In this document: in pieces, positions 20,354-64,000 of the stretch
Position numbering within the stretch: position 1 is the stretch's first letter
How the letters are laid out: every line of letters starts with the position of its first letter
Assembly (NCBI GenBank): GCA_963575745.1
Contig: CAUYUJ010022534.1
Coordinates: 1 to 64,000, forward strand
Source of the DNA: Prorocentrum cordatum
Taxonomy: Eukaryota > Sar > Dinophyceae > Prorocentrales > Prorocentraceae
Direction: 5' to 3'
Length of the DNA: 64,000 nucleotides
The notes under the pieces: model-generated
Database searches by the model: none
What the model was told of the DNA's origin: nothing
What the model saw: only the letters and a program-made list of their open reading frames with translations
Program-made: the position numbers and the translations under genes

Positions 20354-20665
20354 ATCATCCCTAAGCTTTGGTTCTGGGGAGGAAGATTCTCACAGGCCGC
20401 TTCTGTCCCCATTCGGGGATTCGGTGATTCGGTTGCCTTTCGGCGTCTCCGCTCCCCTTGCCGCCCGGGCCCGAGGCGGGGTAGCAAATTTCGGCCAGTG
20501 CTCCCGTGGGAGCCGCGTGGCTACGCTGCAGGCCAACGGCTGTGCAGTGTGGCCTGGGCGCGCGCGGCCTCGTCGGGGCGACGCTCTGGCGGGCCGGCGC
20601 GCCCTCCTGCGGGCCGCGGGCGTTGGTCGCCTGGGGCGTCGCTTTTGCCGGCGCGGCCGGCTTTC
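20354..20665 (+). repeat. Element C terminal repeat A1
   Basis: Direct repeat of 33398-33709 and of 45312-45623 in element D. It starts ATCATCCCTAAGC and ends GCGCGGCCGGCTTTC. Near its start GAAGATTCTC is present; in the 3' copies this pairs with GAGAATCTTC of the adjoining B1 repeat. Confidence 0.88.
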
Positions 20666-20995
20666 GAGCCCTCGAGCAGGGCCAGGACGACCAGGTCGAG
20701 GTCTTGCTGTGCAGGCTGGATCGTGACGTGCTGGAGGACGCCTCGCACAAGGTCAAGCAGCGCGCCGAGGAGGTCAACCGGGCCAACTCGAAGCAGACGA
20801 GCGGCCCGGCGTCATCGCAGGGGCACGCGCCTTCGCAAGGAGGCAAGCCGGGATCGCAGGGCAAGGGGGGCCAGAAGGGTGGCAAGCCAGACAAAGGCGG
20901 AAAGCAGAGCAAGCCCGCCAGGCCGGCCCCGACCACGCCCCAGCGCTCCAGGAGCCCGCCCAAAGGCAAGGGCGCAGCTTCTGCGCAGTGGCACA
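20666..20995 (+). pseudogene. Gag C-terminal fragment of element C
   Basis: It encodes LEQGQDDQVEVLLCRLDRD, a helical DKVKQR-like segment (here HKVKQRAEEVNR), then a Gly/Lys/Ser-rich basic tail with SRSPPKGKG. It is nearly identical to element D gag at about 41005-41335. The N-terminal two-thirds are deleted, so the fragment runs straight out of repeat A1. It stops at GTGGCACA, and its last 12 codons lie 8.3 kb away at 29331-29365 beyond nested element B. Confidence 0.88.
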
Positions 20996-21139
20996 GAAAA
21001 TCTCCTCGGCGGCCTCCGCAGTAACAGTGCCACAGAGAGGTGCCCTGCTGCGTGGTTGCGCCGCTCTTGGGGTCACGCCACCAAGCCGAGGTGCCCTGCT
21101 GCGTGGTTGCGCCGCTCTTGGGGTCACGCCACCAAGCCC
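20996..21139 (-). repeat. Element B terminal repeat B2 (with extra partial copy)
   Basis: 20996-21088 repeats B1 (21586-21679): GAAAATCTCCTCGGCGGCCT in plus orientation, ending in CACGCCACCAAGCC. A 51-bp partial copy of the same repeat follows in tandem at 21089-21139. Between 21140 and 21218 lies unclassified sequence. Confidence 0.85.
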
Positions 21140-21218
21140 GCGATCACAACCACGCGACCACCGAGAACACACACCTCCACCGAGGGCGGGAGGGCGGGGA
21201 AAACGGAAGACGGAGAAA

Positions 21219-21585
21219 CGGCCAGCGCGGGCACAGCCGCACGGAGCCCACCACCACCTGCGGCCAACAGGACTGCGCGGAGCAAGAAACCCCCAGGCCA
21301 CACAGGGGCCTCCAACGGCAACGCCGCCACGGCAGCCTGGCCGAGAGCGCCGCCGCCGGACAGGGCAGCCAGGCCCAGGACACACGACAGACACGACCAA
21401 CAGACAGACGACAGCGACCGACGGACGGCAGAGCAGCAGCAGCAACAGCCGCAGCAGCAGCAGCACGCCGCACCAGGCGGCCAGTCCGCAGCCCCCCTGG
21501 GAGGCAACCAAGACGTGAGCACCCAGACCGGGCAGCTCCAGCCCTTTCGTCAATTTTCCCACCCATGAAAGTGCTTTAGGGTTGA
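21219..21585 (-). repeat. Element B terminal repeat A2
   Basis: Direct repeat of A1 at 28957-29330. The two differ by small changes such as an ACACAC insertion near one end of A1. It contains a CAG-rich tract (about 21430-21470). Confidence 0.88.
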
Positions 21586-21679
21586 GAAAATCTCCTCGGC
21601 GGCCTCCGCAGTAACAGTGCCACAGAGAGGTGCCCTGCTGCGTGGTTGCGCCGCTCTTGGGGTCACGCCACCAAGCCCA
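21586..21679 (-). repeat. Element B terminal repeat B1
   Basis: 94 bp, directly abutting A2, repeating the outermost 93 bp of the element. In element orientation it ends GGAGATTTTC, similar to the GAGAATCTTC end of element C's B repeat and the GGAAGATTTT end of element F's. Confidence 0.87.
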
Positions 21680-21793
21680 ATGCTACCAAGAGCGTGCACA
21701 CCACCCACAAGCGGACGCGGCACAGCCTGTCCGCGCACCAGCGAGCCCAGATGGATGACGACGATGGCTTTTTGCACAGTAACCGCTGCCCCC

Positions 21794-23341
21794 TCAAGCA
21801 CTGTCTGACGAGCTGGAATAATTCGCCAACCAATTACCGGCTTCGAGCCCCCCACGGGCCCTCGCGGACGCGTAACCAAACGCTGTGAGACCACGCCAAC
21901 CGCCAGAATAAAATAGAGCTGTCGGGCCGCCCGCTTTTAAAGCGTCCGAAGCCCAGCCCCGCCGGAAAGCATGCGTACCCCAAGCTGCTGGCGATTCCAA
22001 ACCTGCAGCGGCTGCTCCCAATTTCAGGAGCGCCAGCGACTCGGAATACCTGATATGGCTGAAAGGCGGACGCACTTGCGCCTCTAATTGCTCGAGGGCG
22101 CACACGCCGCACATGCTGGGGCCGAGGACCTCGCAAATGCACTGCCTTGTAACTACCACCGGCTCTTTGTAACACTTCCGTTTCATGTACGTAATCGAAC
22201 AAGAAAGTTTGCCACGCTTTTTTCTGAACGCCACAGGCGCCAGCCCTGTGCCTATGATCAGTGTCTCGCTATATCGTAAAGTAAAATGACGAGACACAGC
22301 CCACGACATGGCCACGTCACGCTTGCCTGCGCCCACAGCCCATTCATACAACAAGCGCGTATCTTGCACAGAAGCCCGCATCCTCGGACGGCGAACACCA
22401 CGCGCTGTGGATTTCTCTGCACCACGGACCAACCGCGAGGTGTCGCTCAGAGCGCCCGCCTCACATTTGAGCCAAGCCAACACGGACCGCAAGTGCGATA
22501 AATACTTCGACAAAGAAGCACCGTTGCGAAACAACGTGGCGAAACAGTACAACGATGCCTCAGCAGGCGGCCACGGCGGCTGCGCTGTCAGAGCCGCCGC
22601 GTGGCCCCACAATTGCACAGCTGATGCGTACGCCCCTGCGCTCTTGCGCCACCCTTGGAACTCCATCCAGCAAGCCTGCTGCGCGAACTGAAAGCTAGAA
22701 GTATTGTTGTCTCTCGCCCGTGCCAATTCCTCAGTTGGCGTGCCTGCCACTGGAAGCGGCGCAGCCGCCTGCTTGCCCAGAATACGAATGGCATCTGCCA
22801 GAACCGAAGGAGCAGGCGGCCTGCGGAGTTTTGTCGCTTCACAAATCATGGCCAAAGCGGTCGCTGCAGCCTCGACAGCCGCGGCCGGACTGCCTGCGAC
22901 GCTGGCTGGCGGAGCAGGGGACGTGCATTTTGAGCGCAAGGCACATCGCGGATCACCTCTGAGATGTGCTATGGCCGCCCGATGGACAAGCTCCCGGTCG
23001 GCCACTGCCATACAAAATTTGATAAAATATTGAACGATGGCTGCGTCCAGTGTTTGCAAAGCCGACCACACTTCTGCCGCTTCACCCACGGTTAATCCGC
23101 CGAAGTCGCTCGGCGCCACGGCCCCTTCTTTCTGCAGAGATTCAGCCACGGCCCCCGCGCCAGGAGCTGGGAAAGGTCTTTTCGCGGCCAGAGCCGCCCT
23201 TTCGAGCAACGCCCGAAACTCTTCCGTAACAGAGTTATGCGGCACATTTCTCTCGGACCCTTCTGCTCCAGACGGCGCGCCAGGGACAGCATGGCGACGC
23301 TGCCATTGTTCTCTGCTCTCGTTCAGGAAACGCAGCGCCAT
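21794..23341 (-). CDS. Tyrosine recombinase of element B (intact)
   Basis: 515 residues from the ATG at 23341, chosen because MALRFLNESRE matches the starts of copies C, D and H. An open extension upstream to 23527 lacks conservation. A helical N-terminal region contains WMEFQGWRKSAGAYASAVQL and PPWPP. The catalytic domain has LRYSETL (Arg about 356), a candidate beta-hairpin Lys in MKRKCYKEPVVV, THAFRRG (His about 457, Arg about 460), SGGW (Trp about 482) and FGYASAR (Tyr about 490). Cysteines at about 401, 403, 411 and 414 form C-x-C-x7-C-x2-C, a possible metal site. The tail is Ser/Asp-rich. The role is integration of the element's circular DNA. It lies downstream of pol as a separate ORF behind a spliced-leader-like motif. 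Confidence 0.92.
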   Translation of the reverse strand: MALRFLNESREQWQRRHAVPGAPSGAEGSERNVPHNSVTEEFRALLERAALAAKRPFPAPGAGAVAESLQKEGAVAPSDFGGLTVGEAAEVWSALQTLDAAIVQYFIKFCMAVADRELVHRAAIAHLRGDPRCALRSKCTSPAPPASVAGSPAAAVEAAATALAMICEATKLRRPPAPSVLADAIRILGKQAAAPLPVAGTPTEELARARDNNTSSFQFAQQACWMEFQGWRKSAGAYASAVQLWGHAAALTAQPPWPPAEASLYCFATLFRNGASLSKYLSHLRSVLAWLKCEAGALSDTSRLVRGAEKSTARGVRRPRMRASVQDTRLLYEWAVGAGKRDVAMSWAVSRHFTLRYSETLIIGTGLAPVAFRKKRGKLSCSITYMKRKCYKEPVVVTRQCICEVLGPSMCGVCALEQLEAQVRPPFSHIRYSESLALLKLGAAAAGLESPAAWGTHAFRRGWASDALKAGGPTALFYSGGWRGLTAFGYASARARGGLEAGNWLANYSSSSDSA

Positions 23342-23369
23342 CCAAAACGAAAGCGCGCGAATGCTGGAT

Positions 23370-23388
23370 CTGAGCCAAAAGCTACGGA
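23370..23388 (-). promoter_or_regulatory. Spliced-leader-like motif before element B YR
   Basis: The minus strand reads TCCGTAGC followed directly by TTTTGGCTCAG, 28 nt before the YR ATG. It equals the dinoflagellate leader with CA missing after TCCGTAGC and one A missing near the 3' end. Confidence 0.6.
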
Positions 23389-23490
23389 CAACGCACTGGC
23401 GAACATCATGCACGCACGCATCCGCAGCAAATGCTTCAATCTCACATAACGCATGCATTTTTTTCTTCCTCGGTAGCCCGCTCGATGCAC

Positions 23491-25653
23491 TCACACAGCC
23501 CACGGGAGATTTGACGGCCATGGCCATTCTACCTGTCTGAAATGTAAACTCTCGAGCGTTGCGCGGCTCCCGCGGGCCTTGCTCGCACGGGTCGGGCCGT
23601 CCGCCAAGTTCAACGCAGATGGCACATAGTGAGCATGCATGAGAACACTCGCCCGCGCCAGCTCGAACCAGACCGACCCCAATACTGCATTAAAATCGGC
23701 CTGTCTAGAACATCCGCGCAGCAGGGTCTGCAACGCGGTAGTGTTGTCAATGAACACCACCAGCTCAGGGTGCTCCACGGCTTGCTGCAAGAAGAAATGC
23801 ACGCCACACAGCGCAGCGAGAAGTTCCCACAGCGTGACCTGCGTGCGTCGGGGCAACGCCCATGACCATGCTGCGGCCGGGACAGCCGTCGCTGCCCATA
23901 CCCGACGGGCTGGTGTCACGAGCACAAACGCAAGCTGTCCCCCGCCAGTTGCATCCGTGTATAGAATGCACCGCTGAAGGCACGGCTGCCGGAAACTAGC
24001 AAAAGCCGACGGGGTTGAGCACAAATATCGCTCCCACCACCGTAGTGCACTGCGCACCCGGTGCGTCAGCTCTGCGCGGCCGCATTTGCCGTGCCAAAAC
24101 AGCGGCGCGAGAAATACTCTCGCGCCCCTGCCAAACACTGCCGTGGCACCCCAGCTTAAACGCCCAGCCAACTTCGCCGCCCCTGCGGGGGACAACGAAT
24201 TAGCCTGCAAAGCCTGACGAATTTGAGCTAGCCACTTTTCTTTCTTATCCTCGCCGATCCAAAACCAAATGCCGTCTGGGCAAGCTTTCGCTACAACTCC
24301 TAAGACGACTGTTTGGTCGGCCTCTGTGACTGCTTTTGCGTCGTCCAACCTCCACCCAAGCAAATCGACTACGAGCTTTCGCGCCAAATTTGCAGATCCT
24401 CTAGGTCCTGCATGCGCCCCGCTGTTTGCAGTATCCAGGGCCACATCGCCTCCGAAAAGATCGTCCACGAAACGCGGGTACACGACCAAAAAGACGACAG
24501 CCAACAGGGCCTGGACAGCACTGCCAAAGCGATGCCACGCAAATACAGACGCAGCCGACCCAAACGGGCACGAGAGAAGCTGCAAACCTCTATCACTGCG
24601 CTCTGCTTCAGCCCAAGTTGCAACGGCAAATTGCAGATGCTCGCTCCGAATCGGCAGCGTTTTAAAAGCCGACTTGAAATCATCTTTCCTGAACAGGAAA
24701 GTAGCGCCAGGATGGCCACCTACACACGCCCGCGCAACGCCGACTAAAGTATCAAGCGAATCGTGGTGCATCTCCTCGGGGATCGCTGTGGCGCTGTTCA
24801 CACCGTTGTCAGTGAAATCGTCTATCAAGCGCACCTTGCGACGCTTACGGCCGCTCTGTTCCTGCCAACCTTCGTCGACAGGGAATCGGGCTGTTAAAAG
24901 ACAGCGATGGCGAGAAAGCGAAATCCAGTGAGCCTTACGCTCTGCTACTTCTTGCAAGCATTTGTTGCGGAACGCTTCTGCAAGTTCTAGGTCAAGCACT
25001 ATGGAACGACGAACCCTGTTCAAAGTGCAGGCGTTGCGTTCATCTAAATTTTGATGGAGTTCCTCCACCGTCGTTGCGGAGACACACGCAGCCCTGGCAG
25101 GCTGAATCCCGCTCGGCTGTAAATTTCCTACGATCGGGAAACCGAAAGCTAAGCTATTGACAAGCTCGGCGTCTGGCCAGCTGATATATTCTAGCATCTC
25201 CCTCAACAAGAAAAGATTCTTTTCAGGACCTAAAACGCTCTGGCATTGCAAAGGCAAACGAGAAAACGTTTGCCGCCAGAGTGGGTCCGTCACGCGCTTC
25301 CTTTCCTCCCAATGAGAGACAGCACTTGCGCGGTGTTCATGCAGTTGTGCCGGCGACATGTCGGCAGCTTTGCACAGCGCATTCTTTAAAATCACAGGCA
25401 TGCAAATGCCCGGGACGACAAGTGGCAACGCGAGCGCCCACTCAAAGTGATCAGCCGGGCACATCGTTGCACACTTGGCCTTGTCAGAATTTAAATCGCG
25501 CACCGCAGCGCAAAACTCGTAAAGGAAATCTTTACGTTCTGCGGAGCGCGCAGCAGAATCGGGAACGCCGGTCTCCAACCGGACGCGTCCATCCACCTCC
25601 GATTCGCTGTCGTCTTCCCCGGGTGCGTCGCTATCGGAGCTGTCGTGACCAGC
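23491..25653 (-). CDS. Pol (RT-RNase H) of element B, read through UGA from gag
   Basis: 720 codons open in the gag frame immediately after the TGA at 25654-25656. The first conventional ATG comes late, so expression by UGA readthrough is the simplest model. An acidic linker (SDSDAPGEDDSESE) precedes an N-terminal domain (HFEWALALP, VLGPEKNLFLL). RT motifs are VRLIDDFTDNGVN, LRKDDFKSAFKTLP, CPFGSAASVFAWHRF and the catalytic FVDDLFGGD (about 24460-24480). A LAGRLSWGATAVFGRGARV connection follows. RNase H has LYTDATGGG, LWELLAAL, VFIDNTTAL and NLADGPTR (D-E-D-D). There is no protease, DDE integrase or methyltransferase signature. The enzyme would copy element RNA to DNA in the gag particle. Confidence 0.93.
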   Translation of the reverse strand, partial: AGHDSSDSDAPGEDDSESEVDGRVRLETGVPDSAARSAERKDFLYEFCAAVRDLNSDKAKCATMCPADHFEWALALPLVVPGICMPVILKNALCKAADMSPAQLHEHRASAVSHWEERKRVTDPLWRQTFSRLPLQCQSVLGPEKNLFLLREMLEYISWPDAELVNSLAFGFPIVGNLQPSGIQPARAACVSATTVEELHQNLDERNACTLNRVRRSIVLDLELAEAFRNKCLQEVAERKAHWISLSRHRCLLTARFPVDEGWQEQSGRKRRKVRLIDDFTDNGVNSATAIPEEMHHDSLDTLVGVARACVGGHPGATFLFRKDDFKSAFKTLPIRSEHLQFAVATWAEAERSDRGLQLLSCPFGSAASVFAWHRFGSAVQALLAVVFLVVYPRFVDDLFGGDVALDTANSGAHAGPRGSANLARKLVVDLLGWRLDDAKAVTEADQTVVLGVVAKACPDGIWFWIGEDKKEKWLAQIRQALQANSLSPAGAAKLAGRLSWGATAVFGRGARVFLAPLFWHGKCGRAELTHRVRSALRWWERYLCSTPSAFASFRQPCLQRCILYTDATGGGQLAFVLVTPARRVWAATAVPAAAWSWALPRRTQVTLWELLAALCGVHFFLQQAVEHPELVVFIDNTTALQTLLRGCSRQADFNAVLGSVWFELARASVLMHAHYVPSALNLADGPTRASKARGSRATLESLHFRQVEWPWPSNLPWAV

Positions 25654-25656
25654 TCA
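25654..25656 (-). other. In-frame UGA between gag and pol of element B
   Basis: Context AAG AAG TGA GCT GGT on the minus strand. The frame is open on both sides. The corresponding single TGA is found in elements A, C, D, G and H. Confidence 0.75.
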
Positions 25657-26934
25657 CTTCTTGTACTGCTTCTTCCAGCCCTGCCACTGGCTCGACTTGC
25701 CCCAGGACGCAGTGTCATCGTCTCGCTGCCGCTTCGGGGGCCTCTGCGGCGACAGCGTGTTCCGGTTGCCCTTGGGCTCGCCCTTGTCGGCGCCCTTGGG
25801 GAACCCCGCCTTGCCGGTGCCCTTGCCGCCTTTGCCGCAGGCGCTGGAGCTGCCAGACGCAACAGACTTAGCAGTGAACTTGTTGAGTTGCTCGCCACGC
25901 TGCTTCACCTTGTCCGCTGCCTTTCGCACCATGTCGTCGTCCAGCTTGCAGAAGAAGTCGGACACGCTCTCGTCGCCCCGCTCCAAAGAGCGAGCCATGG
26001 CGCGACGCTGCATCACGTCATACTGATAGCACACTCGGACGCCGCCATGCTCCTCTGTAATGTGGGAGAGGTTGAAAATGTACGCGAGCAAGTCTGTCTG
26101 AGTGCACACTTCCATGAGCACGCACTTGATGCCCCATTGGAATATGTGACCGACAAAGGTAGCGAAGCCCATGTAATCCAACTTGAGTTCGTTTTCCCTG
26201 GCTTTCTTTTCGTCCAACACTGCTTTCAATTTATCTTCAAGAGAGCCGATTGTCGGGACGACCTGCACCACTGGCGTGCGCGACCACTCGGGCCTGTGGT
26301 GCGTTTGGAGGCATTCCCCGTCTGCACTGCCCACGTACCGCCGGCCTTTGGAAGCGGCGATTTTTCCCGCCTGCTCAAACTTCGCCAGATTCTCTTCGGA
26401 GGGCAGGCCATCTTGTGGAAAGTTCTCGAGGCCCACCTTGGCCAAGCGTTTGGCTAGGTCAAAAAAAAGACCGAGCTTCGCAGGCGGCGTGACAGCAGCT
26501 GTTTGCGCATTGACAAACTTTTCCATCGCCTGCTCCAAGCCAGAGGACGTGCCAGAGGCAGCCGGCTGCTCCTTCATGTCTTTGGCCTGACAACGCTTCT
26601 GCACACGAAGTGCCAAAGCCATCATGGCAGGTGTGAGTGTGAACTCCTTCCAGCCTTCATCTGAAAAGGGTTTGTCCCCGACTGTCAACCCGGTGCGCAG
26701 ACTGTCACGGATGAACTCGTCTGCGAAATCCTCTGTGTGCACGGATTGAACCACCTCAGCCATGGCACGCGCAACACCAGTGTAGAACCGGATGTCGTGT
26801 TTTGCCCGGGCGTTCTCGTCCACGCACGCCACGAACTCCACGAACGCGTTCCGCGAGTCCACGGACGCACCAGCGAAAGCACTTTCGGGCAATGTGGCCA
26901 GATCTGCCACGATGTCTGCAGGAGTGTACGCCAT
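25654..26934 (-). CDS. Gag-like ORF1 of element B (intact)
   Basis: 426 residues from the ATG at 26934 (MAYTPADIVADLATLPESAF), aligned with the MSFS starts of A, G and H rather than the upstream in-frame ATG at 26988. Conserved blocks are VDENARAKHDIRFYTGVARA, DFADEFIRDSL, a central PSEENLAKFEQAGKIAASKG, YVGSADGECLQ, GFATFVGHIFQWGIKCVL, EEHGGVRVCYQYDVMQRRAM and a DDMVRKAADKVKQR helix. A Gly/Lys-rich basic tail ends KKQYKK. It is probably the structural nucleocapsid protein; no zinc knuckle is seen. The stop is TGA in frame with pol. Confidence 0.85.
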   Translation of the reverse strand: MAYTPADIVADLATLPESAFAGASVDSRNAFVEFVACVDENARAKHDIRFYTGVARAMAEVVQSVHTEDFADEFIRDSLRTGLTVGDKPFSDEGWKEFTLTPAMMALALRVQKRCQAKDMKEQPAASGTSSGLEQAMEKFVNAQTAAVTPPAKLGLFFDLAKRLAKVGLENFPQDGLPSEENLAKFEQAGKIAASKGRRYVGSADGECLQTHHRPEWSRTPVVQVVPTIGSLEDKLKAVLDEKKARENELKLDYMGFATFVGHIFQWGIKCVLMEVCTQTDLLAYIFNLSHITEEHGGVRVCYQYDVMQRRAMARSLERGDESVSDFFCKLDDDMVRKAADKVKQRGEQLNKFTAKSVASGSSSACGKGGKGTGKAGFPKGADKGEPKGNRNTLSPQRPPKRQRDDDTASWGKSSQWQGWKKQYKK

Positions 26935-26998
26935 GCCGCTCTCTGGAAGAGGCAAAGAACCGCACAGACACTCAACTGGACAATGCACTGTTGCGACA

Positions 26999-27022
26999 CT
27001 CGAGCCTCAAAGGCAACAGGGA
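26999..27022 (-). promoter_or_regulatory. Weak spliced-leader-like motif upstream of element B gag
   Basis: The minus strand reads TCCCTGTTGCC then TTTGAGGCTCGAG, 65 nt before the gag start. Similarity to the leader is partial and weaker than before the YR. Confidence 0.25.
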
Positions 27023-27349
27023 CGCAAGACAGCCGCACAGCCAGTGACCGGCGCTGAGACGATGTGCTTGCTGTGTCAGGGAAATGAGCAGAAGACCCTC
27101 CCGCCTCCTATCCCCCTCTGCGGCCTGGATGCACCACCCAGGCCAGCAGACGGCGTCATAGGAAGCCGGGCTGAAACAGACTGCCCATCGAAGCGTGCGA
27201 TGCGAAAGACAGACAGAATGACATGATGGATGGAGCGCCCCATTTAGGCGACCGTGTCCATTTGGACGATCTGCGAGAGGGCTTGCGCACGTCCCTCGCT
27301 ACATGGCGATGCTGGCCGACCCCACGCTAACTGGGCAGCCTGTTCAGTC

Positions 27350-27713
27350 TGCCGACCTGAATCTCCTGCTGGGCCGAAAAACTACCGAAATCCGATGGGG
27401 CAAATTCCCATGGGAAATCCTTCCACTTGCAGCCCCAGCTGCCGAATTTTTAGCAGCCACACCAGAATTTAATTCTGAGTTCGCTGGTGAACGGGCGTCA
27501 GCATGGATATTCCGAGTACGCGCCGTTTGGGACGCAGGCCCCCCGGAGTCGGTCGAGCACGGGCGCGCTGCACAAGTGCAAAGCACGCCCGCCCTCGTTG
27601 TGTGCAGGTGGGGGGTTAGCCAATGTCCCCCCATTAAGGACTAGCTTCTGCCGCCTGCGCACATCCGACCCCGAGTGCCCAAAGTGTCCGTAGCCCCTCC
27701 TTCTGGCTCGCGG
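27350..27713 (-). repeat. Conserved 5' leader module of element B
   Basis: About 360 bp shared, in element orientation, with 39136-39511 (D) and 58704-59075 (H). Common blocks are TCGG(A)TGTGTGCAGGCGGCA, AGAAGCTAGTCCTTGATGGG, CCCCCACCTGCACACAACG, CCTGCGTCCCAAACGG, ATATCCATGCTGACGCC and TTCACCAGCGA. At its outer edge (27687-27713) the plus strand carries TCCGTAGCC...TTCTGGCTCG, a spliced-leader-like string in antisense. Sequence outside this point is not conserved between copies. It is non-coding and may be promoter or untranslated leader. Confidence 0.75.
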
Positions 27714-28956
27714 GTCCGGACTACGCGGCGGCCCGACTGCAGCCAATGTGCAGCCAGCGCGCAGATCCCAGTTTTCGCGCCCGACGACGCGAAACCAACC
27801 AACCAAACACTCCGGACTGCAACTTCCCGTAAACGGGCGGATTGCGCACATATCGCTGGTCACGAAATGCGGCCACAGGCGCGAAATCGCGCCACTTGCG
27901 AGAGACCGCGCTTTGCACCTTGCACACGCCGATTCGGCGAGGTCGCGCCACATTCGAATGTGCGTCGACACCACACGCAATCAACGATTGCGTTTTGAAC
28001 GCGCGAGACCGCGCAAGAAACGAACGCCGAACCCAAAAAGAGCGGCACCCTGCCACAACGCATGGCTTTTTGCTGAGAGCACGCGCGAATCCGCGTCCCT
28101 CTCCGCGCATGCCTGCGCGCCAGCGCACCCGAGAGCAATACTGGCCGCGCTTGCATGGAACTGCGCAGAACCACGCCCCAAATGCAATACTGAGCGCGGC
28201 CCAGAGAACGCCTCCACGCACCTGCCCCTGCCGACGAGCACCGGAGGCCTGGCAGCGGCCAGGGCACTGCAACAGGGCGGCGAGGGGCACCAACCAAAAG
28301 AACCGGCGACCCAGGCAAGGAAACGCAGACCGAGGCACACCAGCCAGCACAAAACCACACACCGGCGACGAGGAGCGGCGGCGAGCGGCCCTGGCCGGCA
28401 GACCTGCGACGAGACAGCAGCAGCCCCCGCGCAGGTGCAGAGCACTGGCCCGCAAGAGCGCGGGCTTGGGGGTGGCTTGCGCCAGAGACCCCCAGCCAGG
28501 GCACGGCCAGCGCTTGCCAAGAACCCTCCACATTGGCAACGCGCGCGAGAGCGCGCGGCCACGAGGACCGCAAGCAACCGGCAGCCTGGGACGCCAGCTT
28601 GCGACGAGAAGGCGGTGGCCAGCAAGGGCACATGCCCAGGGTTTGGCTTGCGCCAGGGACCCAGCTGTGCAAGGCACTGGCCAGCAAGGGCACGGGCCAG
28701 GGACCTGCATGCGCCAGGTACCCCAACACATTGGCGAAAGTGACGACCAAGCGCCCGCCAGTGACGAGGGAGGCGCTGGCCAGCAAGGGCACGGGCCTGG
28801 GGTTTGGCAGCAAGGCCAGGGACCCACGTTGCGCAGGGGTCATCGGCAGAGCCTGTTTGGTTGCCTCGCCCACGGCATAAGCGAGGATCACTGGCAGAGC
28901 CTAGTTGGCTGCCTCCCCCGCGCTTTGCCCCAACACGATCTTTACGGAAACAGAAC
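27714..28956 (-). other. Element B region between A1 and leader module
   Basis: No gene. 28440-28830 has loosely repeated GGCCAGCAAGGGCACGGG and TTTGGCTTGCGCCAGG(G/T)AC blocks. The rest is GC-rich and unclassified. It lies inside element B because A1 is outside it. Confidence 0.5.
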
Positions 28957-29330
28957 CGGCCAGCGCGGGCACAGCCGCACGGAGCCCACCACCACCTGCG
29001 GCCAACAGGACTGCGCGGAGCAAGAAACCCCCAGGCCACACAGGGGCCTCCAACGGCAACGCCGCCACGGCAGCCTGGCCGAGAGCGCCGCCGCCGGACA
29101 GGGCAGCCAGGCCCAGGACACACGACAGACACGACCAACAGACAGACGACAGCGACCGACGGACGGCAGAGCAGCAGCAGCAACAGCCGCAGCAGCAGCA
29201 GCACGCCGCACCAGGCGGCCAGTCCGCAGCCCCCCTGGGAGGCAACCAAGACGTGAGCACCCAGACCGGGCAGCTCCAGCCCTTTCGTCAATTTTCCCAC
29301 CCATGAAAGTGCACACACTTTAAGGGTTGA
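28957..29330 (-). repeat. Element B terminal repeat A1
   Basis: Outer 5' terminal repeat, matching A2 at 21219-21585. In element orientation it begins TCAACCCTTAAAG (A2: TCAACCCTAAAG) and contains a CAG-rich tract (about 29168-29208). It ends directly against the resumed gag of element C. Confidence 0.88.
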
Positions 29331-31499: not shown

Positions 31500-31593
31500 C
31501 GGGCATGCATTCGCGAGGAAGGAAAAAAGTGCAGTTGTTGATTCGTCAGCGTTTCTTGCCGCGTACTCCGGCGCACGGCCTCCCACGCAGTCA

Positions 31594-31615
31594 TCCGTAG
31601 TCAGCTTGGCCCAAC
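31594..31615 (+). promoter_or_regulatory. Spliced-leader-like motif before element C YR
   Basis: TCCGTAGTCAG then CTTGGCCCAAC immediately precedes the ATG at 31616. It is 22 nt long, the length of the dinoflagellate leader, with about 17 of 22 positions identical. Confidence 0.55.
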
Positions 31616-33273: not shown

Positions 33274-33397
33274 TGGGTCTCGAGGGCTCCTTGGGGTCTC
33301 TCGTGCTCCCCTGCCCGGCTGCACGCTGTGTGTCGCCCAACGGTCCGTGCGAGCGCACAGGACCATCCCAGAGGAGAGCGGCCGCACGAGAATCTTC
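33274..33397 (+). repeat. Element C terminal repeat B1
   Basis: 124 bp, TGGGTCTCGAGGGCTCC to CACGAGAATCTTC, repeated at 33750-33873. With the start of A2 it forms an inverted repeat GAGAATCTTC/GAAGATTCTC with a 26-nt loop. Confidence 0.9.
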
Positions 33398-33709
33398 ATC
33401 ATCCCTAAGCTTTGGTTCTGGGGAGGAAGATTCTCACAGGCCGCTTCTGTCCCCATTCGGGGATTCGGTGATTCGGTTGCCTTTCGGCGTCTCCGCTCCC
33501 CTTGCCGCCCGGGCCCGAGGCGGGGTAGCAAATATCGGCCAGTGCTCCCGTGGGAGCCGCGTGGCTACGCTGCAGGCCAACGGCTGTGCAGTGTGGCCTG
33601 GGCGCGCGCGGCCTCGTCGGGGCGACGCTCTGGCGGGCCGGCGCGCCCTCCTGCGGGCCGCGGGCGTTGGTCGCCTGGGGCGTCGCTTTTGCCGGCGCGG
33701 CCGGCTTTC
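33398..33709 (+). repeat. Element C terminal repeat A2
   Basis: 312 bp, almost identical to A1 (20354-20665) and to D's 45312-45623. Its final 94 bp also occur alone at 36837-36930. Confidence 0.9.
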
Positions 33710-33749
33710 CCGCCCGCCCTCCCTGGGGTGTCTTGTGTGCTAGCCGGGC

Positions 33750-47878: not shown

Positions 47879-47935
47879 GGAGTGTTGTATGCCGCAAGTA
47901 CATGTTCAACCTGCTATTTTTTTTTTCTTCTTCCG

Positions 47936-49418: not shown

Positions 49419-49431
49419 CGCGGGCTGAAAA

Positions 49432-50827: not shown

Positions 50828-51207
50828 CTTGAACAACAACACAGCAGCAGTGACGGGGGACCCACGAGCTGGCCTTCGAACTTGAACAACACAGAGCACC
50901 CAGCACCAGAGGCTCGAGAGGCAAACCCCCAACCTCCAGCATCGGGCCCCGCCAGCTCCCGCGGAGCCACCAAGTGTGCGAGACGGGGCCACCTGCTCTC
51001 TCGGGAGAGCACGACGCGCATGAGGCAGAGCCGCTGGCCCTCTCAGGAAGGCACCAAGCATATGAAACAAGAGTGCCTGTCCATTATGGCACCTGGGCCC
51101 CAGTACGCAAACCAAAGCCCCCAGACGCCAAGAGGATAAGAGTGGATGACGATACGCTCCGTCGTCATATTTTCCTGCCTCCCAAACTTCGCGATTTGGA
51201 AGCTAAG
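50828..51207 (-). repeat. Element F terminal repeat A1 (5' end)
   Basis: 380 bp, direct repeat of 47289-47673. Its outer end AAGCTAAG abuts the resumed gag of element G. Confidence 0.9.
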
Positions 51208-54575: not shown

Positions 54576-54793
54576 CAGGGAGCAAGGAAAAGAGCGCAGC
54601 AAAATGGTCTCTGCATCGATCGTCGCAGTCATTCTCTGCTCTCCCATCGTTTGGAGGAACGTGCCGGCGTCATGCGCCTCGATGCGCGTTCTGGGTGCCT
54701 GTGCGAATCTTGGCAAGATCAGCGAAATCGCGCTCGGATGAGCAATCTGGGCACAGCAGCGCCTTCAGTGACATGTGCGCCCCAGAACCCCGG

Positions 54794-54814
54794 TCCGTAG
54801 CCGCTTTGGCCCAG
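54794..54814 (+). promoter_or_regulatory. Spliced-leader-like motif before element G YR (best match)
   Basis: TCCGTAGCCGC then TTTGGCCCAG, directly against the ATG at 54815. Compared with the dinoflagellate leader it has three substitutions and one missing A. Confidence 0.6.
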
Positions 54815-56364
54815 ATGCTCGATCTGATCGCAGAGAGCGCCGGGCGCGGAAAGCGGCATCCGCTCAGGCGGATGCGGGCGCGCGTGGGCAGCCAGTTCTG
54901 CCAGAAGCCGCTGACTGGCCGCATCTGCCGCAGACGGTGGCGGGTTTGATCCGCCAATCGGCGAGCGTGCACTCCCCTGGCCCCTCACTGGACGACCTGT
55001 GCGGCGAGCTCGCTCTCCTCGGCGCCGCCGATCCTTTGGATTTCGCTGGTTTGGAGACTGGGACGGCCCAGGTGGTCTGGGCGCCATTGGCACGCTGCTC
55101 GGTTCCCTTCGTGACTAGATTTCTTCAATTGTGCGGAAATGCTACGAGCATCGCTGCGCATCAGGCCCGATTGCCAGAACAGTCCGGCCCAGTGCGTGCT
55201 GGTTCCGCGGGCTCGGGCCTAGGCGAGCCAACGAGTTCGCAGGCGACGTCAGCGGATGCAGCCAGCTCGGGCGAGGGGCCCAACGACAGGGGCATGACTG
55301 CACTGGCGATGGTGGCGAGGGCCAGGCGGGAGCAGACAGCCTTGCCGCCAAACGTGCTGGCGAGTGCGTTGCGTGACATGTCCCGGCTGCCTGACCATCC
55401 CTTTGGAGAGCTGGAGGTCGGCCCGAGGGCCATGGCCAAACGCGCACGGACAGAGGGCATTGGAGCAGACAGTTTCGAATGCCACGCGACCTGGACGGAG
55501 TTTGCAGGCTGGAAGCGCAGCGCGAGGCAGTACGCCAGCGCCGTGCAGCTGTGGGGCGAGGCTGCGGCGCTCGCCAGCGTGCCCCCGTGGCCGCCCTCGC
55601 ACGCAGCGGTGAACGCCTTCTGCACGCTCTTCCGCAGCAGCGCCTCGCTGGGGCGTTATTTTTCACACATCCGCTCCGTGCTAGCGCTCTTGCGCGTTCC
55701 GGCGGGCGAGCTGGCGGACACAGCGCGCCTGGTGCGAGGAGCAGAGAAAGCAGCAGTCGGTCAGCTCCGTCCTCGGGTTTGGGCGTCGACGGCGCAGACG
55801 AGGGCCCTGGTCAAGTGGGCAGTGATTGCAGGGCGTCAAGATCTGGCCCATTCGTGGACAGTGGCGCGTCATTTCTGTTTGCGCTATTCGGAGACATTGG
55901 CCTTGGGAACGGCCGCTGCCCCGTTTCGGTTTGCGCGGAGCGGTTCCGAATGCATTCTTACATTCATGCGAAGGAAATCCTACAAAACGCCAGTGGAGGT
56001 CACGAGAAGGTGCTTGTGCGCAGACGGTGCACACCCGCTCTGCGGCGTCTGCGCGCTCGCTGAAGCAGCCAAGGCAGACGCGGAGCCATTCTCGCACATC
56101 AGTTACGCAGAGGCGCTGGGTTTTCTTAAGGCTGGCGCCGCGGCGCTCGCCTTCCCCCAGGCGCCGCACTGGGGAACCCATGCATTCAGACGTGGTTTTG
56201 CGAACGATGCACTACGGGCCGGTGGGCCCTCTGCTTTATTCTGGTCGTGCGGATGGAGGGGGCTCGCCGCTTTTGGCTACGCGACGGCCCAATCCAGAGG
56301 CGAGGTAGCAGCCGCCCAGTGGCTCGCCGATTTCTCCGATTCGAGCTGCGACAACGAAGGTTAG
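54815..56364 (+). pseudogene. Tyrosine recombinase of element G, N-terminal frameshift
   Basis: The ATG at 54815 gives MLDLIAESAGRGKR, matching other YR openings. A frameshift between about 54860 and 54950 moves to the frame that stays open to 56364, so the catalytic domain is intact: WTEFAGWKRSARQYASAVQL, PPWPP, RHFCLRYSETL, MRRKSYKTPVEV, CLC-x7-CGVC, WGTHAFRRGFA, SCGW and AFGYATA. The tail is DFSDSSCDNE. An alternative start in the main frame cannot be excluded. Confidence 0.86.
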
Positions 56365-59075: not shown

Positions 59076-60103
59076 GGAAGCGCCTCAGCAAGCAGTTCCT
59101 TGGCTGCGTTTCCTGTTGCCTTAGCTCCGAGGCGAAGCTGACATTCGCGTCGTTGCAATAGCGCGCAGTCGAGCTGCGCACGCCCTCTAGCGAGTCGCCT
59201 TGGCGGCGTTGCCCGCCAAGACGGCGCGCCTCACATAAAGAATGGGGTCACCCAGACCACCCACCAGGAAAGAAACCGTTTGGAGACGGATTCGCCTGCT
59301 ACGCGGCGACGCGCAGCATTCTATCGCGAAGGGCGAGCGTAAGCCCCTTCGCGCCGCGTCCAGGCGGACGCGCTCGCCCCAAAGATGGGCGCTCACTCAT
59401 CCATCTCATCATTCAAATCTGCTCTGTGTCCTCTGGCGGCGGCGGTGACAAAGTTGAATCGCGTCGGCGGCGTGGTGGCGTCAGGGGAATCCTTTCTCTG
59501 ACGGCAGCCCAGCGCCGTCAAGCTGCAGGGAGCCAGCGCGGCAAGGCAGGTTCTCCACCGGGGCAGCATCGCACGCAGCGCTCGGCAGGCGCGCTTACGA
59601 CGCCCTCCGGAGGCCTGGGTGGTGCACTCAGGCTGCGGAGGGGGATAAGCATCGCAATCAGCGCTGGCTACGTTTTGCCCCGCAGTGCAGGCCGCGCCTG
59701 AGCAGGTTGTCGTCTCTTGTCTCGTGCGTTGTGCCGCACTAGCTCAGACGAGCACGCTCAGGCAATCTGCCCTCTCACAGCTCAGACCTTGCCCAGCCTC
59801 TCACAGGTTGCTGTCGCGTGTTTTGGCGGCGGCAGCAGGCGGCGTCAGAACTGATTTTGCGAAGGGAAGTCTTTGGAGGGGCTGCCTGCCTGCATGTTTG
59901 AGGAATCGGAAATACGGTTGCTCTCACCATGCCTGAGGCCACTCTCCTCTTTGTCTCGTCGGAAGAGAGGCCAGGTATCCGCCTGCGGGGGGAGATCCTT
60001 CAGCTGTCCACTGTAACCGTGATGGCTCGGACAAGGTGTCTGAATTGCAGATTTGTGTCCTAGCACGCAGAGCAATCTGATTCTACGCGTCGTCCGAGGG
60101 AAG
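59076..60103 (+). other. Element H gag leader region
   Basis: No gene. It has GC-rich unclassified sequence. ACCGTGATGGCTCGG (60016-60030), about 75-85 nt before the gag ATG, is a weak spliced-leader-like string at the same distance as in elements A and D. Confidence 0.4.
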
Positions 60104-61423
60104 ATGTCTTTCTCTCCGAGTGACGTCGCGGCGATGATCGCCACCGCCGCCAGTGGAGCCTTCAACGGCGCAGGTGCAGATCAGGTGCGTGAGTGGGTGG
60201 ACTTCGTCATCAATGTCGACGTCGACCCCGCCAAGAAGCACGATCTCTTCCACTACGTGTCTGTCGCGCGGCTGCTGGCCGAGACGGGAGGCAGCATCGC
60301 GCCAGCCGACTTCGAAGACCCTCACATGCGGGACATGATCAAGGCGAGCATTCCCGTTCACGCCACCCCGTATGCCACCGAACAGGACGACCCGTGGAAG
60401 AGCTGGAAAGTTTCGCCGGCACAGATTGTCTTGGCACTCAAGGTGCAGGGGGCGCGCGCGAAGAAAGCCTCGCCAGGACCATCGGTGCCACCAGAGGTGG
60501 CCCACAACAACAAAGAGCTTTCGGGCATGGCTGAAGCAGTGAAGCAATTTGCGGAACTTCAGTCGCAGGCGCTGCAGAAAGGGAAGCCGAAAGGACTCAG
60601 TTTCAAGTTGCAGGACCGGAAACTCGAGCTGGGCATGCAGCATTTCGCCAAGGATGCACTCCCGTCAGAGGAGGTCCTCGCGAAGTTCGAGGCGGCGGGG
60701 AAGATCGCGCACGACAAAGGCAGGCCGTGGGTCGGGTCCGCCGAGGGCGAGGATCTGCGCGATCACCACCGCCCAACTTGGAGCCGGACTCCTATGATCG
60801 ACGCTGTCGTGGGGGACGGCTCTTACGAGGAGCGGGTGAAGCAGAGCGCTGCCGCCAAGCGGAACATGGCGTGGATGGACAAAGTCGACTACGCTGGCTT
60901 TGCCACGTTCATGGGCCACCTGCACGAGTGGGGATTCAAGGTAATCCTCACCAAGGCATGCAGCATCGCTGACTTCCTTGCGTACGCCCACAACATCGTG
61001 CGAATCGCCGAGGAACACGGTGGAGTCAGGACAGCTTATCAATACGATGTTCTCCAGAGGAGGGCCATGGCCAGGGCTCTGGAGGAAGACGTCGTAGATT
61101 TGGCGCCTTACTTTGCCAAGATCGATCGTGAAAACCTAGCTGACGCCAAAGACAAAGTGAACAAAAGCTTCACGGAGGCTGGCCGGGCTGTGACAGCTAA
61201 GGGGCAGCAGTCGAAGGGTCAGCCCAAAGGCTGCGCCAAGGGCGTCGCCGACAAGGGCGGCAAGGGGAGCAAGAAGAGTTCCGACGGCACAGAGGCTGAC
61301 AACCGGCCTGTCCGGTCGCCGGCCAAGCGCCCCAAGGGCACGGCGGGCACCGATTATCAGCACAGGTCTCGCAGCCCCCGCTCCGGCAATCAGCAGTACA
61401 ACAGTTGGGGAAACAAGTGGTGA
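60104..61423 (+). CDS. Gag-like ORF1 of element H (intact)
   Basis: 439 residues from the ATG at 60104 (MSFSPSDVAAMIATAASGAF). Blocks in order: VREWVDFVINVDVDPAKKHD, LFHYVSVARLLAETGGS and DFEDPHMRDMI (N-terminal third). A middle LSFKLQDRKLELGMQHFAKD, PSEEVLAKFEAAGKIAHDKG and WVGSAEGEDL follow. The C-terminal domain has DYAGFATFMGHLHEWGFKVI, EEHGGVRTAYQYDVLQRRAM and NLADAKDKVNKSF. A basic tail with RSPAKRPKG and RSRSPRS ends NKW. There is no zinc knuckle. It is probably the particle and RNA-binding protein. It ends with TGA in frame with pol. Confidence 0.86.
   Translation: MSFSPSDVAAMIATAASGAFNGAGADQVREWVDFVINVDVDPAKKHDLFHYVSVARLLAETGGSIAPADFEDPHMRDMIKASIPVHATPYATEQDDPWKSWKVSPAQIVLALKVQGARAKKASPGPSVPPEVAHNNKELSGMAEAVKQFAELQSQALQKGKPKGLSFKLQDRKLELGMQHFAKDALPSEEVLAKFEAAGKIAHDKGRPWVGSAEGEDLRDHHRPTWSRTPMIDAVVGDGSYEERVKQSAAAKRNMAWMDKVDYAGFATFMGHLHEWGFKVILTKACSIADFLAYAHNIVRIAEEHGGVRTAYQYDVLQRRAMARALEEDVVDLAPYFAKIDRENLADAKDKVNKSFTEAGRAVTAKGQQSKGQPKGCAKGVADKGGKGSKKSSDGTEADNRPVRSPAKRPKGTAGTDYQHRSRSPRSGNQQYNSWGNKW
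61421..61423 (+). other. In-frame UGA between gag and pol of element H
   Basis: Context AAG TGG TGA GTG GGC. The pol frame is the gag frame. No other stop occurs from 60104 to the end of pol at 63574. Confidence 0.75.
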
Positions 61424-63574
61424 GTGGGCCAAGCACCACTAGTCGAGGGCGCCGGGAGTGATATCTCGGAGGAAGCATCAGACGACACGGAAGCGTCGCC
61501 GCTTCCAGGTACCAGTTCAAGGTCAAGTGAGTCAGCAAATTCTCCACTCGAAGCTGTCCAGGCAGCTTTCTCTGCATTTAGCGCCCGCGAGGATTTGCAT
61601 AGCCTGGGTCCGAGCGACCACTTGCGCTGGGCCAGCGGCTTGCCAGAAGCCGACGATAGCCCGCGCGTGCCAACATTTTTAAACGGCCATTTTGCGAGAT
61701 CGGTTTCAATGTCGGTTGCCGAGCTGCAAACCGCTCGCCAGTCTGCTCTTGCTTTTTGGAAGCATCGGAAGCTAGTGACGGACCCACAGTGGCAGACTAT
61801 CTTTAGAAGTTTGCCAGCTCACTGTCAGTCAGTGCTGGGTCCGGAGAAGAACCTTCTGCTGCTGAAAGAGATGCTCGAGGCTATAGCATGGCCAGATAAT
61901 ACCTTGTTTCACAACCTCTGCCATGGCTTCCCTTTGGTGGGGCGCCTGCCTGCTAGTGGCATCCATGCGCCCGCTGCCACGTCTCCGGAACCAGCCGAGA
62001 CTTTGCGGTCGCTTTTAGCACATCCGCGCGAGCGGAATGAGGCGACTCTCGGTAGAATCGCCGCGGAAAAGGGCGGCGATACGAGGGTTAGGACTCAATT
62101 TTTATCGGCCTGCTCAAAAGAGGTCGAAGATGGCAAGGCCCGCTTCCGTAACCTAGACGTAGATTCTTGTGTTTTAACAGCTCGCTTCCCTATCGTGCAG
62201 GGGGAGAAAGACGGAATGCCAAAAATTCGTTGCATAGACGATTTCACTGCGTCTGCGGTGAATGGCGCGGTTGTACATAGTGAAAGAACATGTCCAGACA
62301 CGCTGGACACTTTGGTGGCATTAGTGCGCCACGCAGCAGCAGGCAAGCAACACATTGCCATGAGGTGGAGGAAAGATGACTTCCGGCACGCTTTTAAGAC
62401 ACTGCCGATTTGCAGCGGCCACTTGCCGCTAGCAGTGACAGCTTGGCCAGAAACAGTGGCAGACGGTAAAGCGTTACAGTTGCTGTGCCTACCATTTGGC
62501 TCTTCCGCATCAGTGTCCGGTTGGGATCGTTTCGGTCTCGCCATTCAAGGCATTTTGGCAGCTCTGTTTCACTTGTTATATTTGCGTTTTGTCGACGATA
62601 TGTTCGCCGGCGATTCGGCCCTGGAGGGGCGCGATATTGGCAGTGACTGCTTAATCGGCCCCGCCGGCTCTGCGCGCCTGGCAAGAGCAGTCGTGTCAGA
62701 ACTGCTGGGCTGGGATCTCGACGCCGGCAAAGCCGTCACGGAGGCCACTAAGACCGTAATCCTCGGAGTCTGCGTAGAATTTGACGACCACAACCAGCTG
62801 ATCCAGTTTTCTCTCGAAGCAGAGAGGTTGGAAAAATGGACCGCAGAAATTCGTGAGGCTCTGCGGCGAAGATCGCTCTCGCCTGCGCGGGCTTTAAAAT
62901 TAGCAGGCAAATTGAGCTGGGGTGCGACCGCCGTCTTCGGCCGAGGCGCGCGCGTTTACCTTGCTGCCATTTACCACCACGGCTCAGGCAACCAGAGCCG
63001 GCTGTCCCAGCGCACCAAATTGTGTCTGCGTTGGTGGCTGCGGTTCTTACAGGAACCGCCATCGAGGAGCGTCCCGGTGATGCGTCGCCAGAAGAAGCGT
63101 TGCATCCTTTACACCGACGCCACAGGCCAGGGACGGATGGCATGGGTCATCCAGACTCCCTGTTTAAAGGCTTGGGCTGCTGCTGATGTCCCAGCAAAGG
63201 CGAGGCAGTGGGTGCTTCATCGGAAGAATCAGATCGGCACTTGGGAGCTCATGGCGGCTCTCTGCGCGCTTAAGTTTTTGCTGGGTTATCTGCCTGGCGA
63301 GTTTGAAATCCTCGCCTTCGTGGATAACACAAGCGCGCTGGGTGCACTTTTACGCGGCTGTTCCAGGCAATTTGATTGGAACGAGCTCATAGGCGAGCTT
63401 TGGTTTGCAGTCGCGCAGCGTGGTCATTATTTGCACCTTTGGCACGTGCCATCGCATTTAAATTTGGCCGACGCTCCGACCCGGCCAGAAGCCAAGTCAG
63501 AGCAGCTGCGTAAGTTAGCCGCCGACGGGTTTCAAGAAATGCCGTGGTCCTTCCCAGCCGACGCGCCCTGGTGA
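61424..63574 (+). CDS. Pol (RT-RNase H) of element H (intact), read through UGA
   Basis: 716 codons in the gag frame directly after the TGA. A Ser/Asp/Glu-rich linker (residues 1-45) leads to an N-terminal domain with HLRWASGLPEA and VLGPEKNLLLL. RT shows IRCIDDFTASAVNGAV, WRKDDFRHAFKTLP, LPFGSSASVSGWDRF and FVDDMFAGD (about residues 389-397). It continues with LLGWDLDAGKAVTEA and LAGKLSWGATAVFGRGARV. RNase H has LYTDATGQG (about 562), TWELMAAL (about 607), AFVDNTSAL (about 632) and NLADAPTR (about 680), all four acidic positions present. There is no protease, integrase or methyltransferase. The first ATG comes late, so translation probably depends on readthrough from gag. Confidence 0.93.
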   Translation: MGQAPLVEGAGSDISEEASDDTEASPLPGTSSRSSESANSPLEAVQAAFSAFSAREDLHSLGPSDHLRWASGLPEADDSPRVPTFLNGHFARSVSMSVAELQTARQSALAFWKHRKLVTDPQWQTIFRSLPAHCQSVLGPEKNLLLLKEMLEAIAWPDNTLFHNLCHGFPLVGRLPASGIHAPAATSPEPAETLRSLLAHPRERNEATLGRIAAEKGGDTRVRTQFLSACSKEVEDGKARFRNLDVDSCVLTARFPIVQGEKDGMPKIRCIDDFTASAVNGAVVHSERTCPDTLDTLVALVRHAAAGKQHIAMRWRKDDFRHAFKTLPICSGHLPLAVTAWPETVADGKALQLLCLPFGSSASVSGWDRFGLAIQGILAALFHLLYLRFVDDMFAGDSALEGRDIGSDCLIGPAGSARLARAVVSELLGWDLDAGKAVTEATKTVILGVCVEFDDHNQLIQFSLEAERLEKWTAEIREALRRRSLSPARALKLAGKLSWGATAVFGRGARVYLAAIYHHGSGNQSRLSQRTKLCLRWWLRFLQEPPSRSVPVMRRQKKRCILYTDATGQGRMAWVIQTPCLKAWAAADVPAKARQWVLHRKNQIGTWELMAALCALKFLLGYLPGEFEILAFVDNTSALGALLRGCSRQFDWNELIGELWFAVAQRGHYLHLWHVPSHLNLADAPTRPEAKSEQLRKLAADGFQEMPWSFPADAPW

Positions 63575-63693
63575 TTCGGAGACAGTGAGCGGCAAAGGGG
63601 AAAAACATCATCGTAATCCTGTGTTGAGGTCATATCACGTGAGAATCGGTTGTCCATGCAGCTACTTGTGCGCACATTCTCTGTGTCTTCTGT

Positions 63694-63712
63694 TCCGGAG
63701 CTCTGGCCCAGC
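63694..63712 (+). promoter_or_regulatory. Spliced-leader-like motif before element H YR
   Basis: TCCGGAGCTC then TGGCCCAGC, directly against the ATG at 63713. It is the most diverged of the seven but at the same position. Confidence 0.4.
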
Positions 63713-64000
63713 ATGGCTTTGAGATTCATCGACAAAAGCCGTGCCGCTAAGTACTCGCATCCGCCAGCTGCCAGCGATGAGGTCGCGGAGGTCCGCGTCG
63801 AGGTGGAAGCGTCCCCTCTGGCGGCCGTCGTCCGCGGCGTCGCGGCGCAGGCAGAGCCAGGGCACCACGTCACGGGCTTGATCGCTGCGTTGACAGAATC
63901 GGGCTTCAAACACATGTCGGATCTGAGCGACATTGGAGCCGACGACTTCGCAGAGCTCGTGCCGGCATTCGCCGCTTGCAACAGCAGCTTCGTCAAAGCC
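63713..64000 (+). CDS. Tyrosine recombinase of element H, N-terminal part
   Basis: 96 codons visible from the ATG at 63713 (MALRFIDKSRAAKY), matching the openings of B, C and G. The visible part covers only the variable N-terminus (MSDLSDIGADDFAELVPAFA resembles DFNDMSVQELRDVWPCLREL in C). Catalytic motifs lie beyond the window end. Confidence 0.85.
   Translation, partial: MALRFIDKSRAAKYSHPPAASDEVAEVRVEVEASPLAAVVRGVAAQAEPGHHVTGLIAALTESGFKHMSDLSDIGADDFAELVPAFAACNSSFVKA

Follow-up and report, generated by a model that had tools for sequence, protein, structure and literature searches.

Relics (DinoRL) of the 22-nucleotide (nt) spliced leader of dinoflagellates (DinoSL) have reportedly been described in dinoflagellate retrogenes by Slamovits and Keeling in 2008. 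Here we report strings resembling DinoSL directly upstream of the tyrosine recombinase (YR) cistrons of a group of retrotransposons in a 64-kb stretch of DNA, positions 1 to 64,000 of contig CAUYUJ010022534.1 of Prorocentrum cordatum, hereafter the window. DinoRL retrogenes are the closest described case: they share with the window degenerate genomic leader copies upstream of open reading frames (ORFs), a tandem arrangement such as we find in one element, and the AG at nt 6–7 that serves them as splice acceptor (PMC12014239, PMC6050394, PMC3229502), but their tag precedes a retroposed gene, whereas here it precedes an internal YR cistron, often beside the AUG, and does so across diverged families. 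The SymbioDIRS and DIRS elements of Symbiodinium also have a separate YR ORF, a divergent reverse transcriptase (RT) poor in Pfam matches, and A-coding-B-A-B repeats; some of their families carry Dnmt3, whereas the elements described here have gag, an in-frame UGA, and RT, followed by a YR with its leader copy (PMC5890265). The term “spliced leader” is absent from the main text of that paper, as it is from the main text on VIPER of kinetoplastids, which is alike by description only, as a YR retrotransposon with A1, B1, A2, B2 split direct repeats in a trans-splicing lineage (PMC6681497). Cer1 of C. elegans is a retrotransposon with an SL1-trans-spliced subgenomic mRNA, its spliced 2.4-kb mRNA being found with and without SL1 and its 8-kb RNA not being trans-spliced at that site; unlike the present elements it is of the Gypsy/Ty3 type, and the passages on it describe no DNA-encoded leader copy (PMC3315495). 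Finally, dinoRNAV and its endogenous copies provide a dinoflagellate parasite that carries the host leader, but this is an RNA virus, with the leader at the 5′ end or flanking the RNA-dependent RNA polymerase and not before a YR cistron (PMC10235124). Leader relics as such are common in dinoflagellates, and their apparent placement inside YR retrotransposons is without a precedent that we could find: full-text and related searches, with subscription papers mostly outside their scope, returned no description of it among the matches listed.

The window (~62% G+C) starts with a satellite-like array that reaches to ~8300; it also contains several gag-RT-YR retroelements, which tblastn with reference ORFs places on the minus strand (A, B, and F) or the plus strand (C, D, G, and H). 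An earlier note on this DNA had counted seven YR copies; C and D are near-identical, and A and F belong to one family, so the seven copies amount to five lineages. The strings before their YR starts are as follows.

10127..10147, minus strand: DinoSL-like motif of A, score 10, 21 nt before ATG 10105
23370..23388, minus strand: DinoSL-like motif of B, 28 nt upstream of the YR start codon, score 13, one of the two best of 1,098 ATGs
31594..31615, plus strand: DinoSL-like motif of C, score 12, abutting ATG 31616
43575..43596, plus strand: DinoSL-like motif of D, abutting ATG 43597, near-identical to that of C and hence not independent
49432..49448, minus strand: weak DinoSL-like motif of F, score 4 (p 0.13), with exact TCCGTAGC and a pyrimidine tract before the AG
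54794..54814, plus strand: DinoSL-like motif of G, score 13, abutting ATG 54815
63694..63712, plus strand: weak DinoSL-like motif of H, TCCGGAGC...TGGCCCAGC, before ATG 63713, score 4 (p 0.13), with AG and pyrimidine tract kept

Exact TCCGTAGC stands at four of the seven YR starts (A, B, F, and G), its place being taken by TCCGTAGT in C and D and by TCCGGAGC in H. The distance from motif to YR ATG is 0–28 nt, and 0–1 nt in C, D, G, and H. In G, ATG 54815 and the long YR ORF (54775–56364) are in different frames, G being probably frameshifted. When the 1,098 ATGs outside the left-hand satellite are ranked by their best DinoSL match within 40 nt upstream, the YR ATGs of G, B, D, C, and A take ranks 1–5. 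Individually, B, C, D, and G each reach a p-value of 7e-5 and A one of 4e-4, with H and F both at 0.13; combined over the five lineages A, B, C, G, and H (D and F were left out, as they depend on C and A), Fisher's P is 2e-12, or 1.5e-11 with a 50-nt window. The two halves of DinoSL are enriched separately (P 2e-6 and 7e-6), and ten control sites (eight ORF stops and two RT starts) are flat (p 0.40–0.98). A scan of the window with the whole leader gives the same picture, its top four sites being those of B, G, D, and C, with A tied for fifth with a site at 24606 inside the RT coding region of B; four sites score at least 12, as against 0.15 per shuffled window and at most two in any of 60 shuffles. 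The strings are found where the earlier note had placed them, and G and B are indeed the nearest to DinoSL; its further claim that every YR start bears the motif stands for G, B, D, C, and A, those of F and H being weak.

We consider it very probable that the motif is derived from DinoSL. The last bases of the motif, CCCAACATGG, do resemble a common eukaryotic start context, as they would if the motif were a generic start-codon context or due to chance, but the observed sum is reached by none of 20,000 permuted leaders and by none of 4,862 22-mers from the window, and the 5′ half of the leader is enriched by itself; such an account is scarcely credible. A coding explanation of the motif was ruled out, as the reading frame through it differs between elements.

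Exact TCCGTAGC occurs eight times in the window on both strands, as the earlier note had counted, compared with 0.82 expected, and none of 100 shuffles reaches eight. Four of the eight are the YR starts already given, and one lies 100 nt before the gag ATG of A. The other three are all antisense to their element, two of them in a repeat (R, below) upstream of gag in B and D and one in the left noncoding region of D. None coincides with an element end, as far as these are mapped (left and right for B, C, and F, right only for D). The note's statement that seven of the eight sit at element boundaries or before element ORFs is borne out for the ORFs named and not for the mapped boundaries. This bears on its suggestion that the motif is a recognition site of the YR that happens to resemble the leader. 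The two exact copies in the repeat upstream of gag in B and D would suit such a site; nevertheless, the complete element B lacks the motif at both ends, and integration of DIRS1-like elements uses the terminal-repeat junction (PMC3266345), leaving the suggestion very improbable.

The placement of the motif recurs in YR families that are far apart. In a midpoint-rooted tree of 30 YRs, C is distant from G, H, B, A, and F, and the deepest split has motifs 0–1 nt from the ATG on either side (C/D versus G and H). Between lineages, identity is 26% in the 40 nt before the motif and 90% over 8 nt of the motif, the latter figure being inflated since the motif was the anchor. The N-terminal extensions of seven metagenome YRs, when back-translated, jointly fit DinoSL (Fisher 9e-5 versus shuffled sequences and 2e-4 versus other segments). 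These extensions were drawn from 56 of the 59 matched proteins (P0050, P0054, and P0055 fall outside), with exclusion of proteins that have no stretch before the conserved YR Met or an unclear start. The abutting form is fitted strongly by P0005 (TVAVFAQ before the M) and not significantly by P0006 (SVVGLAQ before the M); a further protein, P0014, is taken to be the YR of H, its initial residues being identical. An unselected single relic would be expected to be lost over such distances, so that the shared placement would seem to need either selection or renewal. This argues against regarding the strings as dead relics, that is, as DinoSL tags left by retroposed trans-spliced YR messages and now without function. 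Leader relics upstream of genes are ordinary in dinoflagellates, affecting over 20% of genes (PMC11453091; PMC6050394), and the copies in F and H are decayed, but a tag that is not renewed should vanish and not hold its place where the preceding 40 nt have diverged to 26% identity. We regard dead relics as unlikely.

Element A has a second, shorter leader.

10113..10126, minus strand: truncated second leader of A, CCGGTTTGGCTTAG (compare DinoRL CCATTTTGGCTCAAG), directly after the first leader

The match, to a DinoRL reference taken from PMC12014239, has a p-value of 0.0003 at the exact position and ~0.0015 when five anchors are allowed (it was tested in A only). A full leader followed by a truncated one is described as the mark of recycled trans-spliced cDNA (PMC12014239; PMC3229502), the new leader being spliced to the AG at nt 6–7 of the older relic, which is re-used as acceptor (PMC3229502). 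By eye, the TTTTGG before the ATG of B may likewise be the remnant of a second leader. The AG at nt 6–7 is kept at all seven YR starts, as is TCCG.AG. The 20 nt before this AG contain 0.55–0.75 pyrimidines, compared with a mean of 0.49 for all AGs (six starts; D was not run), in a stretch that overlaps the motif and to which the motif's own bases contribute. Taken by itself, this pyrimidine richness has a p-value under 0.05 at two starts only, those of F and H, where similarity to the leader is weakest. The pyrimidine content fits a working acceptor.

This pattern of retention also bears on two accounts that do without trans-splicing of the YR message. It has been proposed for dinoflagellate retrogenes that the leader copy supplies a TTT(G) element at which transcription begins (PMC6050394; PMC12014239), and YR might be transcribed in this way, as TTTTGG is kept in B and CTTTGG in G. 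However, TTTG is missing from the motifs of F, H, and C/D and is found in A in the second copy only, whereas TCCG.AG is kept in seven of seven; initiation 0–1 nt before the ATG would, moreover, leave no space for a downstream acceptor. We therefore think a promoter role improbable. To much the same degree we doubt that the leader-like sequence is a signal of the element's own, serving translation or RNA handling. In favor of such mimicry, four elements (C, D, G, and H) have the motif 0–1 nt from the AUG, and dinoRNAV sequences with dinoSL have been described, with mimicry as a speculation (PMC10235124), but the spacing to the AUG varies (0–28 nt), and A resembles stacked relics and not one fixed signal.

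The coding regions upstream of YR are joined in a different manner. In B, D, and H, one reading frame runs from the end of gag into RT, interrupted by a single TGA, and the next 120 codons contain no further stop; G has the same TGA with a further TAA and an upstream frameshift.

25654..25656, minus strand: TGA between gag and RT of B
29363, plus strand: the corresponding TGA of C
41366..41368, plus strand: TGA between gag and RT of D
52402..52404, plus strand: TGA between gag and RT of G
61421..61423, plus strand: TGA between gag and RT of H

This suggests that gag-RT is made by UGA read-through. The YR has its own ATG after a noncoding spacer of 131–267 nt (B, C, G, and H). No leader signal is found at the two RT starts that were scored (G and A). 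Before gag, leader-like strings are present at greater distances.

13792..13811, minus strand: weak DinoSL-like motif before gag of A, 80 nt before the ATG, score 6 (p 0.10), with exact TCCGTAGC
26999..27020, minus strand: DinoSL-like motif before gag of B, 64 nt before the ATG, score 8 (p 0.012)
39996..40016, plus strand: DinoSL-like motif before gag of D, score 9 (p 0.0055)
60009..60030, plus strand: weak DinoSL-like string before gag of H, 73 nt before the ATG, score 5 (p 0.17)

The motif of D lies 83 nt from ATA 40100 and 113 nt from the first in-frame ATG, 40130, from which it was scored. Taken together over 130 nt upstream, the four gag starts A, B, D, and H give a Fisher P of 6e-4 (that of G is ambiguous, and none is present at the expected position in C or F). 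These distances resemble the 50–100 nt of dinoflagellate 5′ untranslated regions (PMC6050394). Upstream of gag there is also the repeat R (27371–27716 in B, 39137–39404 in D, and 58699–59047 in H), which bears a leader-like string in an orientation antisense to the elements; its copies are ~89% identical, although the gag proteins of B, D, and H are only ~40% identical.

We lean, with some reserve, towards a model in which the DinoSL relic persists, by retention or renewal, because YR has a trans-spliced mRNA to itself. The motif would be a DNA relic of the host leader, brought back into an ancestral element with the cDNA of a trans-spliced YR mRNA. Afterwards the relic would have been preserved, or written anew time and again from the host leader, since it opens the YR cistron. 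The primary transcript would cover gag-RT-YR, with gag and RT read as one product via the in-frame UGA and YR given a separate capped mRNA through leader trans-splicing; the splice acceptor would probably be the AG of TCCGTAG, as re-used in known DinoSL relics, and the main mRNA would have its 5′ end at the weaker relic upstream of gag. The earlier note had listed capture of YR from a trans-spliced mRNA and a leader-like start signal giving a separate YR mRNA as distinct possibilities. The two are supported jointly, by the full-plus-truncated tandem in A, by the YR's own AUG where RT is joined to gag in frame (B, D, and H), and by the recurrence in far-apart families.

Several observations weigh against this model. 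The YR motifs are nearer to the ATG than the 50–100 nt of dinoflagellate 5′ untranslated regions (PMC6050394), and the processing of polycistronic transcripts in dinoflagellates is disputed (PMC6027434). The first Met of the RT frame after the TGA is at codon 96 in H, 64 in B, and 51 in C and D, and in B and C/D it stands directly before the conserved region, so that a start codon is not strictly missing from RT, which may be initiated separately there; we have lowered our confidence in the whole model for this reason. F and H are not significant individually, and no site in the window matches DinoSL within three mismatches, which makes the motifs diverged copies. When the same 50 nt are scored in antisense, low p-values are seen in C (0.003) and H (0.042), with 0.073 in G; these raised scores probably stem from the palindromic (T)TGGCCCA(A). 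The overlap noted above limits the pyrimidine comparison, the codon of D aligned with the other gag starts is ATA (40100), and the RT starts scored for the leader are two, those of G and A. As for the metagenome extensions, the choice was made by eye, with P0038 entering the local version of the comparison once its resemblance had been noticed. Only two of the seven are individually significant versus other segments in the local version, the other five not being below 0.05, among them P0003, which passed the end-to-end version; in the end-to-end version three of six (P0006, P0009, and P0023) are not below 0.05.

A more specific form of the trans-splicing model, which we put forward tentatively and regard as rather doubtful, is that of a self-renewing leader exon. 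Each recycled trans-spliced YR message would rewrite the host leader before YR, and this copy would be re-used as acceptor, splitting the transcript into gag-RT and YR mRNAs.

Tyrosine recombinases have the residue pattern R...HxxR...H/W...Y. In the YRs of the window and their relatives, R351, R356, H457, R460, W482, and Y490 are invariant in 27 aligned rows (P0007, P0018, and P0028 are outside this alignment), and one relative, P0039, is named “Tyr recombinase domain-containing protein”; Pfam gave no recombinase match for YR. R.VDD is invariant in all five aligned RT ORFs, with sub-threshold Pfam matches to RVT_1 and RVT_3 in G and C only, and PDB profile searches found no relative of RT. No protein of the window has a Pfam match above cut-offs, which fits with the poor alignment of Symbiodinium DIRS RTs to Pfam (PMC5890265). 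Metagenomes supplied relatives of the YR, as did records under the names Prorocentrum cordatum and Polarella glacialis. The host is on this account very probably a dinoflagellate and of a trans-splicing lineage, as the earlier note's reading supposes. Scans of viral contigs and genome contigs found no YR relatives, tblastn against phages and plasmids and the Rfam and tRNA scans of the window gave nothing useful, and a third protein search gained only P0058 and P0059. By their YR and repeats, the elements appear to be DIRS-order YR retrotransposons, PAT/Ngaro-like, with split direct repeats. Their parts are listed below.

8705..13711, minus strand: coding region of A (gag, RT, and YR from 10105), with breaks in gag and YR
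20996..29329, minus strand: element B, a complete YR retrotransposon (~8.3 kb) nested in C
28952..29312 (A1), 21585..21678 (B1), 21214..21574 (A2), and 20995..21139 (B2), minus strand: repeats of B
25657..26934, minus strand: gag of B, 42% and 48% amino acid identity over matched parts to gag of H and A
23491..25596, minus strand: RT/RNase H of B, recognized by an RFVDD motif and homology, in frame with gag through one TGA
21794..23341, minus strand: YR of B, with R, HxxR, GW, and Y columns invariant in the 27 aligned rows
29435..31484, plus strand: RT/RNase H of C, with a frameshift near 31020
31616..33150, plus strand: YR of C, with a frameshift near 32700
33274..33873, plus strand: repeats of C (B1 33274–33397, A2, and B2 33750–33873), with an A1 copy at 20353–20671
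40100..45067, plus strand: coding region of D (gag with frameshifts, RT, and a broken YR from 43597)
46450..46884: RT fragment, from tblastn of reference ORFs
47028..51210, minus strand: element F (A1 50778–51210, RT, YR from 49418, B1 47673–47783, and B2 47028–47138)
51161..56364, plus strand: coding region of G (gag, RT, and YR)
60104..64000, plus strand: coding region of H (gag 60104–61423, RT 61424–63574, and YR from 63713, cut by the window end)

In B, A1 and A2 are 99.7% identical over 361 nt, and with the B1 and B2 pieces they form split direct repeats in the order A1...B1-A2-B2. C, D, and F share the B1-A2-B2 part, accompanied in C and F by an A1 copy; none was seen in A, and F gave no gag match. 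At the insertion site of B, C-family sequence is broken between GGCACA and CCAAAG, a junction that is uninterrupted in D near 41333, and no target-site duplication beyond a base is visible at this one insertion. Four elements have a polypurine tract between the RT stop and YR (for example, GAGGAAGGAAAAAAG), ~100–130 nt before the YR ATG, which is a possible internal plus-strand primer site.

23458..23471, minus strand: polypurine tract of B
31515..31529, plus strand: polypurine tract of C
43496..43510, plus strand: polypurine tract of D
63594..63605, plus strand: polypurine tract of H

A 0.86-kb RT piece of D (42513–43375) is inverted relative to C. The array at 1–8300 is built of ~108-bp tandem units with a very strong AT skew (about −0.7) that changes sign near 6 kb, an inverted junction within the array. 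Diverged arrays of ~90–100-bp units lie at 14093–14454, 35592–36169, 38412–39071, and 57683–58674, three of the four on the gag side of elements A, D, and H. A further tandem array, mostly of 120–140-bp units, occurs at both outer ends of C (18256–20351 and 33873–34549), as if C had been inserted into it.

If the trans-splicing model is correct, leader addition would act as an internal switch in a selfish element, a role already suggested for it in multi-gene transcripts. In elements that copy their own RNA into DNA, leader relics would trace cDNA recycling. The type of element that mediates the formation of dinoflagellate retrogenes has been called unknown (PMC6050394), and YR elements of the kind seen here would be one possible machine behind them.

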